Positions 1 through 8,220 of a stretch of DNA of 45,944 nt are shown one piece after another. The notes under the pieces are model-generated. The model was not told the DNA's origin. It was given only the letters and a program-made list of their open reading frames with translations, and made no database searches. The number at the start of each line of letters is the position of its first letter. Positions within the stretch are counted from its first letter, which is position 1. Made by a program: the position numbers and the translations under genes. This DNA comes from a bacterium. GTDB lineage: Bacteria; Actinomycetota; Acidimicrobiia; Acidimicrobiales; Bin134. The DNA lies in assembly GCA_026709025.1 (NCBI GenBank), contig JAPOTT010000014.1, forward strand, positions 17,705-63,648. The letters are read 5' to 3'.

Positions 1-3000
1 AGAAACACTCACACCCGCAGTGTCATCATCAACCACCATCAACGATGCCGGGTTAACAGTCCCACCTAGTAGCGTTCCAGTCACACTCACCGTCTCAGCG
101 CCCTCGTCTGTGCTGTCGTCTGTAGGAGTAAACGTGAAATCCGCATGGCCGCTGTCAGCGCCTGGGGGGATCAATATCTGTAGATCAGCCACTACCTCGT
201 AATCAGTGCCCTTAGTCGCAGAATCAGTGCCATTGCCCACTGCCACAGACACATTCACATGGTCGCTGAAACGCGTGACACCATCTACGGTGGCAGTCAC
301 ACGCACCGTCTTCGCACCACCACCCTCAGCCAAACTGCCCTGCACCCCATCCGTGCCAGTATCAGCATCCACACTCAACGTAATCGCCGAAGGCGCGGCA
401 TCATCATCAGTCACCGTCACATCCACATCAGCAATAGTCGCTCCCTGATAATTAGAATCATCCGAAACCGAAGTATGCGTGACAGCAGACGTGCGCCGGT
501 TATTCGGATTATCAATATTGTCGTTAACACCAATCACGGTCACCGTCTGAGCCACATTCCACGCCGTAGCCCCACTAGGAGTAAACGTCAACGTCTCAGA
601 CGCAGAACCCTCAGTGCCCGGATCGCTACCATCCACAACAACCGCACTCGCAGTACCCGACGTCACGGTAATCGTCACATCATGAGTGGGTGGCGAGGTT
701 AGAACCACCATATAGGTATCGGTACCGCTGTTCTCGGCGACGGTGGTATTAGGCGGTGTTCCCGACTCGGTGATCAGCACCCCTGCGGTGTCGTTATCAG
801 TAATGGTCACGGTGACGGAAGAAGGTTTACCAGCGGTATAACCAGCGGGCAACGTACCCAACTCCAGCACCAGCCACTCAGCACTCTCTGGTTGGGTGTC
901 ATCTACAGCAGTAAGGGTTACCGAATCAGACGTTGCGCCCTCAGCAACAGTGATGCTGCTAGCCGATAAATTAAAGTCGGTGGCTGACGCTGTTGGGTTC
1001 CCTGATGTGCGCATCTGCACAGGGATCGTGATACCGCCGGTGGGTGCCGCTGATCCTAAAGTGGCGGTGACCGTAAGCGTGCCGCCCTCAGTAACCGCGC
1101 CGCTGTTGTTCACCTCCAAAGTAACCACCTTAGAGGGATCAATGCCAACGGTGAACACTGGCGAAAGGGCATACAATGACAACTCCGTAGCTCGCGAAGC
1201 GTTGCCACCACTTAGTGGATTTTGCCCACCCCTAGAATCATTGAGCTTACCGGTGCCTACGTTGCCTCTAACCCCCAGCTGGTTGTTAGAACGTGCCGTT
1301 CCACTGTTGTTGGTACCAGTCCAATAGCCAGCTGCGTCCGGTGAGATGGCCGTGCCATCCTCGTTTCTCGGATTGGCCTCATCATCCCACGTACTATCCC
1401 AAAAATCACCATAGTCATCCGCCACCTTGTTGCCAGCTAGCCAAAAGATCTCCTCACCAGTGCCATCGTCGGTAAGATCAGCATCGTTGTGTGCATCAGC
1501 ATCAACAGTTGCGGTGCTCCCCACTACCCGGAAGAACCCCGCATAAGGCACCACGCTCGCGTGACCCATAGCCGCATGTGCCCTTACGAACGCATCGTAG
1601 TCAGCAATATCGGCAGAAAGAGCATTGCGCTTACCTGAAGTAACGAACAGCAGCCTAAAGCTCTCACCACCAGCTGCCGTCGAAGGCTTCAATGGCCAAT
1701 CAAAAGGCACCACAATGTCACCAACCTCATCGTCGGTAATGCCAAACGAGAACGGTCCACCCGCTGGTGTTGCAATAGACACGTTCACACCCGAAGGCGC
1801 ACGAGAGCTGGTGCCATACGCAACAGTCACATAACGTTGGGTGCGTACCTCATTATTTACTGGCGTAAAACGCAGTGTTGCGGAGGATGCCCCCGATGCT
1901 AATCGCAGCGCTGGGTTCTGCGCGCTGTGCGGTGCTGCAGTCAAAACAGACACCCCCGTTTGAGCAGAAGGTGCTAATGCCCATGTAAAATCATCGGTTA
2001 CCGTTACACCGGTCACGCTCAACGGCACCGTCACCGTCTCATTGCCGGTCAACGCACGTCCTAAAGTGACCGTGAAATCCTTGCTCCCACTATCCTCAGC
2101 CACGTCACCTGTAGGCGCGCTCAAAGCTAACCTCACATTCTCATTTACGCCGTCGTTATCATTGACGGTGACTGTTGCAATGTTTGGTGTACCTACCGTG
2201 TACTTCATATTGACAGGACTAATGAGGTCTGCCAACACCTCAACTGTCACGCCACCATCGGCTTCCTCTGTTTGGTCGTTGTGTGTGGGAACCCTGTAGG
2301 TGGCAGAGGTTTGGCCTCTACGCAACCAACCTGCGCCGTCCTTAACACCAGCATCATCGTTACGAACGAACGCTCCCCTTAGCACCCGAACACTAAACCG
2401 AATATCTTGAATTGCAGGCTTAGTGGCTGTCATCGTAAACACAGCGTTGCTGCCTTCGGTAACAGCAGGGCCTGCCGTGATGCTCAACAATGGCGGATCG
2501 GCATCATCCATGATTGCAACCGAAGCCGAATCCGACGAACCGATAAGATACCCCGAACCTGGTGTCAACATTACGGTAACCGAACCATCTAGCTCGCCCA
2601 ACCTATCGTTGATGGTCGGCACGCTAATGGTTGCTGTGGTTCCACTGAACCTGAGGGTATTGCTACCTGTAGCCACAAAATCACCATCTTGTGTCACTGT
2701 GTAGTGAACCGTGATTGAGGCTGGTGGCGCATTATCGGCGGTCACCGTAAAGACAGCTGACGTCCCCTCAGTAACCGTGCTGCTGCCACTCACGGCCACG
2801 TTTAGCGTGGGCACTACCTCAAACACCGGTGACAAACCGTAAAAAGGGCGCTCTCGCGCACTGTCTAGAACACGTTCATCTATTGGGCCTGTATCCCAAG
2901 CGTCTGCAGCGGCCGTCTCTGCACCACCCGCGCCCACAACCACGTTCCCTGTAGAACCCAAATAAAGACCTCCAGAGTCTGTTCTGGTTCGACATTCGTT

Positions 3001-5571
3001 GCTAATGCCAGTAAACGGCGCAGCAATAAACGACTCCGTACCGCCTGTTTCTAGTTTAATTTTTCCCGTATGAAAATCGTCCTCTGTCCAGCCTCCATTT
3101 TTCTGTTCTTGGCAAAACACCGAGTGACTAGGAGCAATTTGAGTGCCATTAAGCCAGAAAATCGGCGGGCCCATAACATCCAAACCAAGCCGCTGGCGAG
3201 CGTGCGCGTTTTCCGTAGAACCCAATACTTTGAAGTTCCCGATGTAAGGCTTGACAGCCTCATGACCACGCTCAATCAGCGCTGTCTGAATAAATCGGTC
3301 ATAATCGGTAATGTTTGTAGATGTGGCATCACGACTGTTAGAGGTTTTGAACAACAACCGGAATTGATCACCAGAAGTCTTGCTGCTAGGTCTTAAAGCC
3401 CAGTTATACGGCACCTGCACTACCCCGATATCATCATTATTCACAACAAAGCGAACCACACCGCCCCAAAACAGATCCCCAGTAATACCACTCGCGCTCG
3501 GTACACGCTGATCGGTTCCAAAGTCAACTGATACTAACGGCGAACGTCTGTCTACGTTGGGTACAGCAACATAGCTCAAGGTTGCAGTTTGAGCACCTGC
3601 ACCAAACACTAGGCGAGGCTGTGTGTAACTGTCGGCTCCGCTGATACTCAAGCTCACAGCAGCCTGCGAAGATGGATCCAACATCAACATGAAATCTGCT
3701 GCTCCAACACCCGAAACCAACAACGGAACCTCAACCATCTCACCTGTTGTTAGCACACGGCTCAACTCCACAGTGATCGTCTTGGTGCCACCGTTCTCTG
3801 CAACATTGCCTGATTGTGCAGAAACCGACACGCACAGTTCAGCAGACCCACCGCTCACCGTAACATCAGTAGCTGTTGCTTCGCTCTTGGAATCCGCGCC
3901 AACTATGTTTCTGGCAATCACCGAAATGTCGTAATCTCCTGCGGGCAAACCACTAAAGGTGGCCGTCAGGCTAGTTAAATCCGTAACAGTCTTTTGTTGT
4001 TGCTGAATGCACGACTCTTCAGCCACGTTGTTTAACGTCACAACATACTCATGCACGTCTTTATGGCCTTGATTCTCTGGAGCTTCCCAAGTCACCGTAA
4101 CCTGATTGGCAACGCTGGCATCTGTAGTAAGGTTCTTCGGCGCAGTAGGCGGCTGGTTATGCTGCCAAGGGTTCGGGATTTCCGCTAACATGGCAGCTAC
4201 CTTTGTGCCAATCTGAGTTTTTTTCTCCTCATCAGTGAGCTCTGATGAGGCACGCAGAAGTTCCAGGCTCATTGCAAACTGAACGATCTCAACCGGGTTG
4301 TAATACTCACGACCAGCAAAGCCGTTGAAGGCTTGCAACACCATGTAACCATCACCAACACCTGAGCCACGGCCATCCCCATTCACTCCAAAAGTAAGGT
4401 CTAACACCCACTCCCACACATCGTTAAGTTCCGAACGTTGCCAGACACCATCCGCGCCTCGAAACCTATCATAGAAATATTCAGGCACATTGCCTGATAA
4501 GATCTCTGGAAACATTGTGAAATACGACTTATGAGTGGTTGAAGGGCTTATGCCACAGCCTCTCCAATATCCTCCGTCACTAATATGATCAACAAAAGTT
4601 TCTGCAAAGTAACTCGCGGCAAGATCAGCCATTAACTCGAAAATTGGCCCACAGCGTTGAAAGCCATCTTGTGTATTTACTAATTCCTGTAAATACAGGT
4701 ATCCAATAGCATCAGACAGGAAAACACCTTCACCCGCTGGGATGTTTCTAGGTTCAGCTCCAGCAGGACCCACCCAATAGTGATGGTGTATTTCGTGGGC
4801 ATAAGTACCACCACCCTCTGTGGGAATTATAGCCACGCCAAAATGCAAGCTTATAGGCCCAGATATTCCGAAACCATCACCCCCCGTCCAACTCCATCGA
4901 ACAGCGGTACCAGCGCCAGCATTACCTAAGAAAACTGCACGATATTCAGAACTGTCTTGTGCAAATGGCACATTATCCCATCCCTTCCTAAACCAAGGCA
5001 TCGTGGCTTCTGCTAGCTCAACAACCTGCTCAATATGATGGTGAAGCTGCTGGTTCTTTGTCAAAGGCGTAGCCGACACCACGGTAGACGCATCACTCAA
5101 ACTGTCAGTGCCGTAACGCGTAAAAACTCGCACGTCATAAGTCGTTCCGTTTGTGAGGCCGTCTGTCGGACTCCCAATCTGATAGTTGGTGGTAGAAGCA
5201 CCAACCACATCATGGTGCGACGCCGCAGACCAATCCGAAGCACTCGCCTCACGCCACTGCACCCGATAACCGATAGGAGACCCCGTAGTTACCTCATCCC
5301 AAGAAACTTTGAGGATCTTCCCACCCTCTAGCAAATCCTTTCTCCCGTTTTCATCTGGCTCGGTCTCACCGATCTCTTCAATGTACATAAACCCACCCAG
5401 CTCCACCTGCACATTGGAGGGCGCTGGTGGCGGGTCTTGTGCCATAGCAGCAGATGAAAACAAGGTTTGTGTCAATGCCAAGCCCAGCACAAACATTACA
5501 AAGCCACAGCCCCAACAAAAGGCCCGGCGCACCCTGTTGGTGTCAGAGCCAACCTTTTCATGCTGCAACAC
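1..5571 (-). CDS. Giant secreted zinc-metalloprotease-like protein with FN3 and Calx-beta-like repeats (3' end outside window)
   Basis: One open frame of 1,857 codons runs off the left edge. I chose GTG at 5571, which has AAGGGG about 9 bases upstream. GTG 5532 and ATG 5496 are in-frame alternatives; from 5532 the product opens with a textbook signal peptide (MRRAFCWGCG, hydrophobic core, cut after SSAAMA). Then come an FN3-like domain (about residues 50-165) and a domain with HEIHH at residues 259-263 and a candidate third ligand Glu near 311 in ELMADLAASYF, the pattern of a gluzincin-type zinc protease. A second FN3-like domain follows. The rest is a string of Calx-beta-like repeats, many ending in DDD or NDND calcium-type turns, interrupted by two copies of a ~200-residue module (3430-2812 and 1735-1148). 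It is probably a surface or secreted adhesin-protease. The substrate is unknown, and the protease call rests on the motif alone. Confidence 0.85.
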   Translation of the reverse strand, partial: MLQHEKVGSDTNRVRRAFCWGCGFVMFVLGLALTQTLFSSAAMAQDPPPAPSNVQVELGGFMYIEEIGETEPDENGRKDLLEGGKILKVSWDEVTTGSPIGYRVQWREASASDWSAASHHDVVGASTTNYQIGSPTDGLTNGTTYDVRVFTRYGTDSLSDASTVVSATPLTKNQQLHHHIEQVVELAEATMPWFRKGWDNVPFAQDSSEYRAVFLGNAGAGTAVRWSWTGGDGFGISGPISLHFGVAIIPTEGGGTYAHEIHHHYWVGPAGAEPRNIPAGEGVFLSDAIGYLYLQELVNTQDGFQRCGPIFELMADLAASYFAETFVDHISDGGYWRGCGISPSTTHKSYFTMFPEILSGNVPEYFYDRFRGADGVWQRSELNDVWEWVLDLTFGVNGDGRGSGVGDGYMVLQAFNGFAGREYYNPVEIVQFAMSLELLRASSELTDEEKKTQIGTKVAAMLAEIPNPWQHNQPPTAPKNLTTDASVANQVTVTWEAPENQGHKDVHEYVVTLNNVAEESCIQQQQKTVTDLTSLTATFSGLPAGDYDISVIARNIVGADSKSEATATDVTVSGGSAELCVSVSAQSGNVAENGGTKTITVELSRVLTTGEMVEVPLLVSGVGAADFMLMLDPSSQAAVSLSISGADSYTQPRLVFGAGAQTATLSYVAVPNVDRRSPLVSVDFGTDQRVPSASGITGDLFWGGVVRFVVNNDDIGVVQVPYNWALRPSSKTSGDQFRLLFKTSNSRDATSTNITDYDRFIQTALIERGHEAVKPYIGNFKVLGSTENAHARQRLGLDVMGPPIFWLNGTQIAPSHSVFCQEQKNGGWTEDDFHTGKIKLETGGTESFIAAPFTGISNECRTRTDSGGLYLGSTGNVVVGAGGAETAAADAWDTGPIDERVLDSARERPFYGLSPVFEVVPTLNVAVSGSSTVTEGTSAVFTVTADNAPPASITVHYTVTQDGDFVATGSNTLRFSGTTATISVPTINDRLGELDGSVTVMLTPGSGYLIGSSDSASVAIMDDADPPLLSITAGPAVTEGSNAVFTMTATKPAIQDIRFSVRVLRGAFVRNDDAGVKDGAGWLRRGQTSATYRVPTHNDQTEEADGGVTVEVLADLISPVNMKYTVGTPNIATVTVNDNDGVNENVRLALSAPTGDVAEDSGSKDFTVTLGRALTGNETVTVPLSVTGVTVTDDFTWALAPSAQTGVSVLTAAPHSAQNPALRLASGASSATLRFTPVNNEVRTQRYVTVAYGTSSRAPSGVNVSIATPAGGPFSFGITDDEVGDIVVPFDWPLKPSTAAGGESFRLLFVTSGKRNALSADIADYDAFVRAHAAMGHASVVPYAGFFRVVGSTATVDADAHNDADLTDDGTGEEIFWLAGNKVADDYGDFWDSTWDDEANPRNEDGTAISPDAAGYWTGTNNSGTARSNNQLGVRGNVGTGKLNDSRGGQNPLSGGNASRATELSLYALSPVFTVGIDPSKVVTLEVNNSGAVTEGGTLTVTATLGSAAPTGGITIPVQMRTSGNPTASATDFNLSASSITVAEGATSDSVTLTAVDDTQPESAEWLVLELGTLPAGYTAGKPSSVTVTITDNDTAGVLITESGTPPNTTVAENSGTDTYMVVLTSPPTHDVTITVTSGTASAVVVDGSDPGTEGSASETLTFTPSGATAWNVAQTVTVIGVNDNIDNPNNRRTSAVTHTSVSDDSNYQGATIADVDVTVTDDDAAPSAITLSVDADTGTDGVQGSLAEGGGAKTVRVTATVDGVTRFSDHVNVSVAVGNGTDSATKGTDYEVVADLQILIPPGADSGHADFTFTPTDDSTDEGAETVSVTGTLLGGTVNPASLMVVDDDTAGVSVS

Positions 5572-5608
5572 CGAAGTACTACCCCTTGTAGCTAAATAAC
5601 GAGCATAC

Positions 5609-5624
5609 GGGGGGGGGGGGGGGG
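5609..5624. repeat. G16/C16 homopolymer tract upstream of the giant secreted gene
   Basis: Sixteen G on the plus strand, so C16 on the coding strand of the giant secreted gene, 38 bases before its chosen GTG start. The giant gene's frame stays open upstream through the tract back to a TGA near 5740. An ATG at 5672 would enter the gene's frame if the tract were C14 or C17, but with C16 it meets a TAG soon after the tract. This is the layout of a slippage-controlled (phase-variable) start. The tract could instead change promoter spacing. Its length may be misread by sequencing. Confidence 0.85.
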
Positions 5625-5822
5625 AGCAGTGAGATTTCGCGCCAAATGATTGCACGCACTCACACGAGACATGAAAGCGCCCACTAGTTTTCGAGCTAAG
5701 ATCCCCACCACTGCGATTTTCTACCACATCATGCAAGCACCTGCCACCACAAATGCTAGAAATCTCAACTCCACGAAAATGGCGGTGTGGAATACAACAG
5801 ATGGATTAGGTAGCGTTGCAGG

Positions 5823-6311
5823 ATGCCTACTTTTGATGTTTCCTCGGAGTTGGATATGCAGGAGGTTCGCAATGCCGTAGACCAAGCTGCCCGTGAGATT
5901 ACAAGCCGCTACGACTTCAAGGGAACAGACACCGAAATCACCCTGGGTGAAGGAGCCATCACCCTACAATCGTCTAGCGAAGACAGGCTAGCTGCGGGCC
6001 GACAAGTGCTAGAAGAAAAGCTGGTAAGGCGCAAGGTATCTCTCAAAGGGGTAACTTATAGCCCAGTAGCCGATGCAGCTGGCGGGACGGTGCGCCAAGA
6101 AGCAGCTCTGGCTGCAGGCATCTCAGCCGACAAAGCCCGGGAGCTAAACAAGTTCATCAAGAACCTCGGCATAAAGGGTGTCTCCTCACAAACCCAAGGT
6201 GGCCAGCTGCGGGTAAGCGGCAAAAAACGAGACACACTCCAAGAGGTGATCGCATCCCTAAAAGAAGCCGACTTCGCTATCCCCCTACAATTCGGCAACT
6301 TCCGAGACTAA
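5823..6311 (+). CDS. yajQ: YajQ family cyclic-di-GMP-binding protein
   Basis: A 162-residue protein, the usual length for YajQ/UPF0234. It opens with the family's MPTFDVSSELD and carries ITSRYDFKGTD near residues 27-37 and the C-terminal FAIPLQFGNFRD. Family members are small cytoplasmic proteins with two RRM-like folds. Some bind cyclic-di-GMP and act as effectors with transcription factors, but the role differs between species. The gene stands alone on the plus strand, divergent from the giant secreted gene with about 250 bases between them. Its stop codon overlaps that of the convergent AlbA-type gene (CTAA at 6308-6311). Given the surface protein next door a link is tempting, but that is inference. 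Confidence 0.93.
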   Translation: MPTFDVSSELDMQEVRNAVDQAAREITSRYDFKGTDTEITLGEGAITLQSSSEDRLAAGRQVLEEKLVRRKVSLKGVTYSPVADAAGGTVRQEAALAAGISADKARELNKFIKNLGIKGVSSQTQGGQLRVSGKKRDTLQEVIASLKEADFAIPLQFGNFRD

Positions 6312-8092: not shown

Positions 8093-8220
8093 TTAGGATT
8101 TTACGAACCATAAAATCCTAACAAAAGCCCCCCAACACCACACACTAGGATTTTACGAACCATAAAATCCTAACAAAAGCCCCCCAACACCACACACTAG
8201 GATTTTACGAGGGATTTTAT
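8093..8220. promoter_or_regulatory. 52-bp tandem repeats carrying palindromic operators
   Basis: TAGGATTTTA begins at 8094, 8146 and 8198, an exact 52-bp period. In the first two units it is followed by CGAACCA and its exact reverse complement: arms 8093-8103/8111-8121 (11 bp) and 8146-8155/8163-8172 (10 bp). The 25-base linker between palindromes (ACAAAAGCCCCCC...CACAC) is repeated too. The third unit is broken: its second half reads GGGATTTTATGG, a direct rather than inverted copy. The array sits between htpX and the AlbA-type gene, 13 bases before that gene's start, so it is probably an operator array for the regulator. Hairpins in the leader RNA are an alternative. Confidence 0.85.

Follow-up and report, generated by a model that had tools for sequence, protein, structure and literature searches.

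Does the 16-base C tract in front of a giant secreted-protein gene in the window (the whole 45,944-nucleotide stretch of DNA that was analysed) act as a slipped-strand switch, and, if it does, at which step would it control the gene? Phase variation through homopolymers has long been known as a general phenomenon (PMC2831843), and the first-pass annotation of this DNA had proposed a phase-variable switch while describing it as unusual for an actinobacterium. The latter remark was too strong, as variable G/C tracts are known in the actinobacteria Cutibacterium acnes (PMC4746626), Gardnerella (PMC11287997), and Mycobacterium tuberculosis (PMC11898584).

A tract and several possible starts

The C16 tract announced in the first-pass annotation is present in front of the giant gene (Table 1) and is the sole homopolymer of more than 8 bases within the 45.9-kb window. 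It is real, and its length is far beyond chance: by a simple expectation, about 1.6e-4 runs of C16 or G16 would occur in the window, and the observed count of sites with nine C's was reached by none of the dinucleotide shuffles. At 5609-5624, the locus thus combines a repeat tract beyond chance with a position in or just before a coding region, as slipped-strand genes do. The nearest N or sequence end is at least 200 bases away and the sequence is coherent on both sides; the sequencing error that the first-pass annotation had named as a possible refutation is improbable for this embedded tract.

The frame of the giant gene is open through the tract and back to 5736, again in agreement with the earlier reading, and start codons upstream of the tract occur in more than one frame (ATG 5672, GTG 5655). 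We could also reproduce that the ATG at 5672 runs into a TAG (5594-5592) at C16 and enters the frame of the gene at C14 or C17. A small correction concerns the distance from the tract to the downstream start (GTG 5571-5569), which measures 37 rather than 38 bases. The length of the tract shifts the frame read from ATG 5672; a start at GTG 5571 would be unaffected.

Table 1. Features of the tract locus and its neighbours, in window coordinates.
Feature	Position	Strand	Basis
C16 tract (G16 on the + strand), proposed slippage site	5609..5624	-	sequence read, homopolymer count
ATG, 48 nt before the tract; relative to the giant ORF out of frame at C16, in frame at C14/C17	5670..5672	-	frame reading
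GTG, 31 nt before the tract; in the frame of the giant ORF at C16; no clear ribosome-binding site	5653..5655	-	frame reading
TAG terminating the ATG-5672 frame at C16	5592..5594	-	read directly from sequence
AAGGGG, possible ribosome-binding site if translation starts downstream of the tract	5582..5587	-	read directly from sequence
GTG-TTG, possible starts downstream of the tract	5566..5571	-	frame reading
Giant secreted-protein open frame, extending past the window; with fn3 and Calx-beta domains and a single HEIHH motif near 4797	1..5736	-	ORF, profile search
Signal peptide region if the start is 5571; hydrophobic core, then AMA/QD	5440..5571	-	cleavage site judged by eye
yajQ-like gene, divergent, conserved neighbour	5823..6311	+	ORF, sequence comparison

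The giant secreted protein and its neighbourhood

The giant ORF reaches its stop codon about 3,740 codons after the tract, beyond the window and across an assembly gap of N's. Its N-terminus resembles a signal peptide, an fn3 match (2.7e-14) lies above the Pfam cut-off, a Calx-beta match (22.1 bits) lies below the Pfam cut-off of 27, and the sequence matches in the PDB are titin-like fn3 domains. The product is thus predicted to be a secreted protein with fn3 or Calx-beta domains, a feature of the eukaryote-like adhesion proteins of sponge symbionts. The additional label of a metalloprotease, given in the first-pass annotation, finds no support beyond one HEIHH motif; no Pfam metalloprotease family matched the protein, and a single-sequence fold model of the HEIHH region (pLDDT 40) was unusable.

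The yajQ-like gene next to the giant gene shares 86-91% identity with copies from sponge-associated Acidimicrobiia, two of which are named Candidatus Poriferisocius, and sequence comparison places the source organism in the Ca. Poriferisocius group (Acidimicrobiia, sponge symbionts). Among 20 related genomes, we found no full-length relative of the giant gene and only short fn3 matches, so that the tract length at the window locus could not be compared; the regions upstream of yajQ in relatives gave no alignment with the tract region. Elsewhere in the window, a perfect 52-bp tandem repeat is present in 2.2 copies (8094-8210).

Poly-C tracts in the genome, the genus, and the order

The genome containing the window (2.2 Mb) has 44 C/G tracts of at least 10 bases. 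Tracts of at least 12 bases number 33, compared with about 0.75 expected from base composition, and at least one such tract is found in 20 of the 22 genus genomes. In the sample of the order, they occur in 56 of 148 genomes, mostly one or two in each with a few rich exceptions; the tract-rich genomes outside the genus are G090, G110, G112, G142, and G074. We rejected the use of all tracts as evidence because many adjoin N runs or contig ends. Clusters of very long poly-C and poly-G runs, the longest being G38 and C50, adjoin N gaps or contig ends (L032, L034, L040, L042, L045, L047) and are probably assembly or read artefacts. Once all tracts near N or contig ends had been discarded, 14 embedded ones remained for the own genome and 70 across the genus loci that were read.

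Of the two single-contig genomes (G006 and G029), one contains a single tract (C25) of at least 12 bases and the other contains two (C16, C16); the loci from single-contig genomes are L206 (C25), L233 (C16), and L234 (C16). In L233, an ATG is followed by 13 further bases, the C16 tract, and then a signal peptide. As the same architecture is present in single-contig genomes, the tracts are not confined to fragmented drafts, and the architecture exists beyond such drafts in lower number. The Poriferisocius group includes the single chromosomes OX638344.1 (3,809,525 bases) and OX638350.1 (3,592,749 bases), which, given their contiguity, were presumably built from long reads.

Positions and target genes of the embedded tracts

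The embedded genus tracts are concentrated at the 5' ends of long ORFs, where 56% of the 70 are located, against 26% of positions drawn at random from these loci (p ~1e-7, a value that is too small by an unknown amount because related loci were counted separately), and 15 of the 70 are far from any long ORF. They recur at homologous sites in different genomes.

Restriction and defence genes are among the targets. In the own genome, tracts were found in type I HsdM genes (L033, out of frame; L051, in frame) and in a type III Mod gene (L059, G11, in frame), and the Hma-type defence has poly-C tracts in both its methylase (HmaB, L038, out of frame) and its ATPase (HmaC, L046, in frame). The HmaB halves on either side of the tract align with successive segments of a single profile (6-380, then 396-958), which places the tract inside one gene and excludes a chimeric join. 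Type IIG enzymes of genus mates also contain tracts (L165, L168, L210, L211, L229).

A further group of targets consists of secreted proteins, with a second secreted Calx-beta protein in the own genome (L049), whose tract immediately precedes the hydrophobic core, and secreted fn3 or Calx-beta proteins in genus mates (L158, L171, L201). In many species, the tract of secreted proteins precedes the signal peptide, and in the fn3/Calx-beta proteins it is located between the start codon and the signal peptide. Two loci (L167, L232) have no start codon between the tract and the hydrophobic core, so their translation must begin upstream of the tract. The nearest upstream ATG was in frame in 10 of 33 cases, a figure that we rejected as proof of switching since incidental ATGs would give the same value. 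In genome G003, the secreted-protein loci L193 (tract at 3542) and L203 (tract at 2504) share 250 bp of upstream sequence (94.8% identical) that holds the start codon and the tract, after which different secreted proteins follow, as if 5' cassettes had been exchanged at the tract.

In a tyrosine-recombinase family, the tract stands right after the ATG (L160, L180, L183, L186, L190, L196, L202, L214, L242). Its length in this family ranges from C12 to C21 in several members of the genus.

Length differences at a shared locus and the repair background

Three genomes assigned to different species share one recombinase locus (L180, L214, L242), whose copies show 0-1 mismatch in the 1,400 bp upstream of the tract and no mismatch in the 489 bp downstream, and are thus identical over 1.9 kb except for one mismatch. 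The tract lengths are C16, C18, and C12, and the ATG is in frame at C16 only. As far as the assembled sequences can be taken at face value, tracts that differ by up to six bases while the DNA around them is identical are the outcome expected from slippage; short-read library stutter or assembly error could contribute to the difference, and the contigs may represent a shared mobile piece or be mis-binned. In the own genome, the end of L043 and the start of L037 overlap by exactly 55 bases ending in C12, with the contigs broken inside one tract, which fits an assembly graph branching inside the tract and is suggestive only.

MutS is absent in all 21 of 21 genomes, including order mates with few tracts. 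The own genome contains NucS, which in mycobacteria leaves indels of 1-2 bases unrepaired (PMC11551767). The absence of MutS together with NucS-only repair permits tract instability, but this background fails to explain why the genus has more tracts than order mates that equally lack MutS.

How the tract may act on the giant gene

We consider it probable that the C16 tract works as a slipped-strand contingency locus at the N-terminus of the giant protein and that it is a member of a set found across the genus. Replication slippage would alter the number of C's in the tract, and without MutS, and with only NucS, which in mycobacteria leaves small indels unrepaired, the altered number would be kept. 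The tract would most likely lie within the coding sequence, flanked by an upstream start (ATG 5672, possibly GTG 5655) and the signal peptide, and its length modulo 3 would set whether the giant fn3/Calx-beta surface protein is translated, with the frame from ATG 5672 off at C16 and on at C14 or C17. The variation of the window tract, the choice of start, and a host-facing action of the protein at the surface are what we infer here. Phase variation is well supported for the tract class by the positional enrichment, the target genes, the length difference at the same recombinase locus, and the absence of MutS. To this extent, the switch proposed in the first-pass annotation holds; the same support does not extend to the window gene, which has no full-length relative and for which phase variation is a likely inference. 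A frame switch from an upstream start appears favoured for this gene because that arrangement is forced in the genus members L167 and L232. Some observations count against a contingency locus with a frame switch, namely the AAGGGG before GTG 5571, which fits a start downstream of the tract, the fact that draft assemblies can misjudge homopolymer length, and the single-contig genomes with only 1-2 tracts of at least 12 bases. Moreover, GTG 5655 is in frame at C16, which leaves the on/off state of the giant gene at this length uncertain.

The main rival to the frame switch, which we regard as rather unlikely, is a phase-variable tract in the promoter or 5' untranslated region of a gene starting at GTG 5571 (or TTG 5568), where its length would alter promoter spacing or mRNA folding and tune expression rather than the frame; sequence alone cannot separate the two. 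Such a start would have the AAGGGG 10 nt before GTG 5571 and would give an ordinary signal peptide, and Gardnerella commonly has tracts upstream of its genes (PMC11287997). TATGCT, which follows the tract immediately, is a possible -10 element, for which C16 plus G would form a 17-base spacer (by eye), but no -35-like hexamer is found at the right distance, for which reason a promoter with the tract as its exact spacer was rejected, and a promoter scan of 5400-6000 gave no match. Furthermore, the tract must be in the coding region in several family-like cases (L167, L232, and the recombinases), which argues against this rival.

A real tract without a regulatory role, i.e., slippage-prone sequence drifting in a lineage that lacks indel repair, is improbable. 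The absence of MutS in all 21 genomes, also in order mates with few tracts, and the embedded tracts far from any long ORF would agree with drift, but these order mates mostly hold 0-2 tracts, and drift alone would not predict the enrichment at 5' ends and at restriction and secreted-protein genes. Similarly improbable is an artefact of assembly or base calling (mis-assembled homopolymers or two-colour poly-G reads), to which the many own-genome tracts adjoining N runs or contig ends, including G38 and C50, and the far fewer tracts in single-contig genomes would point, but from which the window tract is set apart by its distance from any N or end and its coherent surroundings, and the embedded tracts by their location inside continuous genes, at homologous sites across genomes, and also in single-contig genomes.

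Significance for sponge symbionts

Open questions in the field include the tolerance of sponges towards some bacteria and the survival of dense symbiont communities under phage attack. Both fn3/Calx-beta proteins and restriction-modification systems belong to the gene classes reported to be enriched in sponge symbionts (PMC8163846, PMC9531527). If such genes switch randomly in a widespread symbiont, one sponge would contain a mixture of surface and defence types hidden by consensus genomes, and many apparently broken genes in these genomes would be off-phase rather than pseudogenes. Such a mixture within one sponge can be tested with existing long-read sponge data. A broader and more tentative possibility is a genus-wide bet-hedging system, in which poly-C tracts would turn eukaryote-like surface proteins, several restriction and defence systems, and tyrosine recombinases on and off independently of one another, and would also serve as joints for the exchange of start-codon cassettes (L193/L203), yielding a mosaic of surface and defence types in each sponge.

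Comparison with known systems

The mechanism is known, also in other actinobacteria, and the scale and breadth of targets observed here appear to be unreported. In the open-access literature, we found no report of homopolymer phase variation in sponge symbionts or Poriferisocius, and the literature searched yielded no earlier report of tracts in HmaB or HmaC.

Phase-variable DNA methyltransferases and type IIG enzymes (PMC6265453, PMC7394358, PMC4889913) likewise have tracts inside HsdM, type III Mod, and type IIG genes. In contrast to these systems, the tracts described here are also present in HmaB and HmaC, and the switching of methylation is predicted from sequence. C. acnes (PMC4746626) and Gardnerella (PMC11287997) are also actinobacteria with dozens of variable G/C tracts, within genes and upstream of them, but are human commensals, unlike the sponge symbionts studied here. 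The C. acnes examples considered here have 6-13 nt and are shorter than most tracts of the present genus (PMC4746626). In Gardnerella, tract variation was measured among colonies (PMC11287997), whereas tract lengths were compared here between assembled genomes.

Close parallels are also found in the poly-G/C contingency loci of Campylobacter, Neisseria, and Helicobacter (PMC8355987, PMC5084427, PMC2823697), where surface and restriction-modification genes likewise have long G/C homopolymers at or close to their 5' ends and an on/off state set by the frame, a property predicted for the present loci. They differ in that the tracts described here belong to uncultured sponge-symbiont actinobacteria, in which giant fn3/Calx-beta proteins, Hma defence genes, and tyrosine recombinases are added to the targets.
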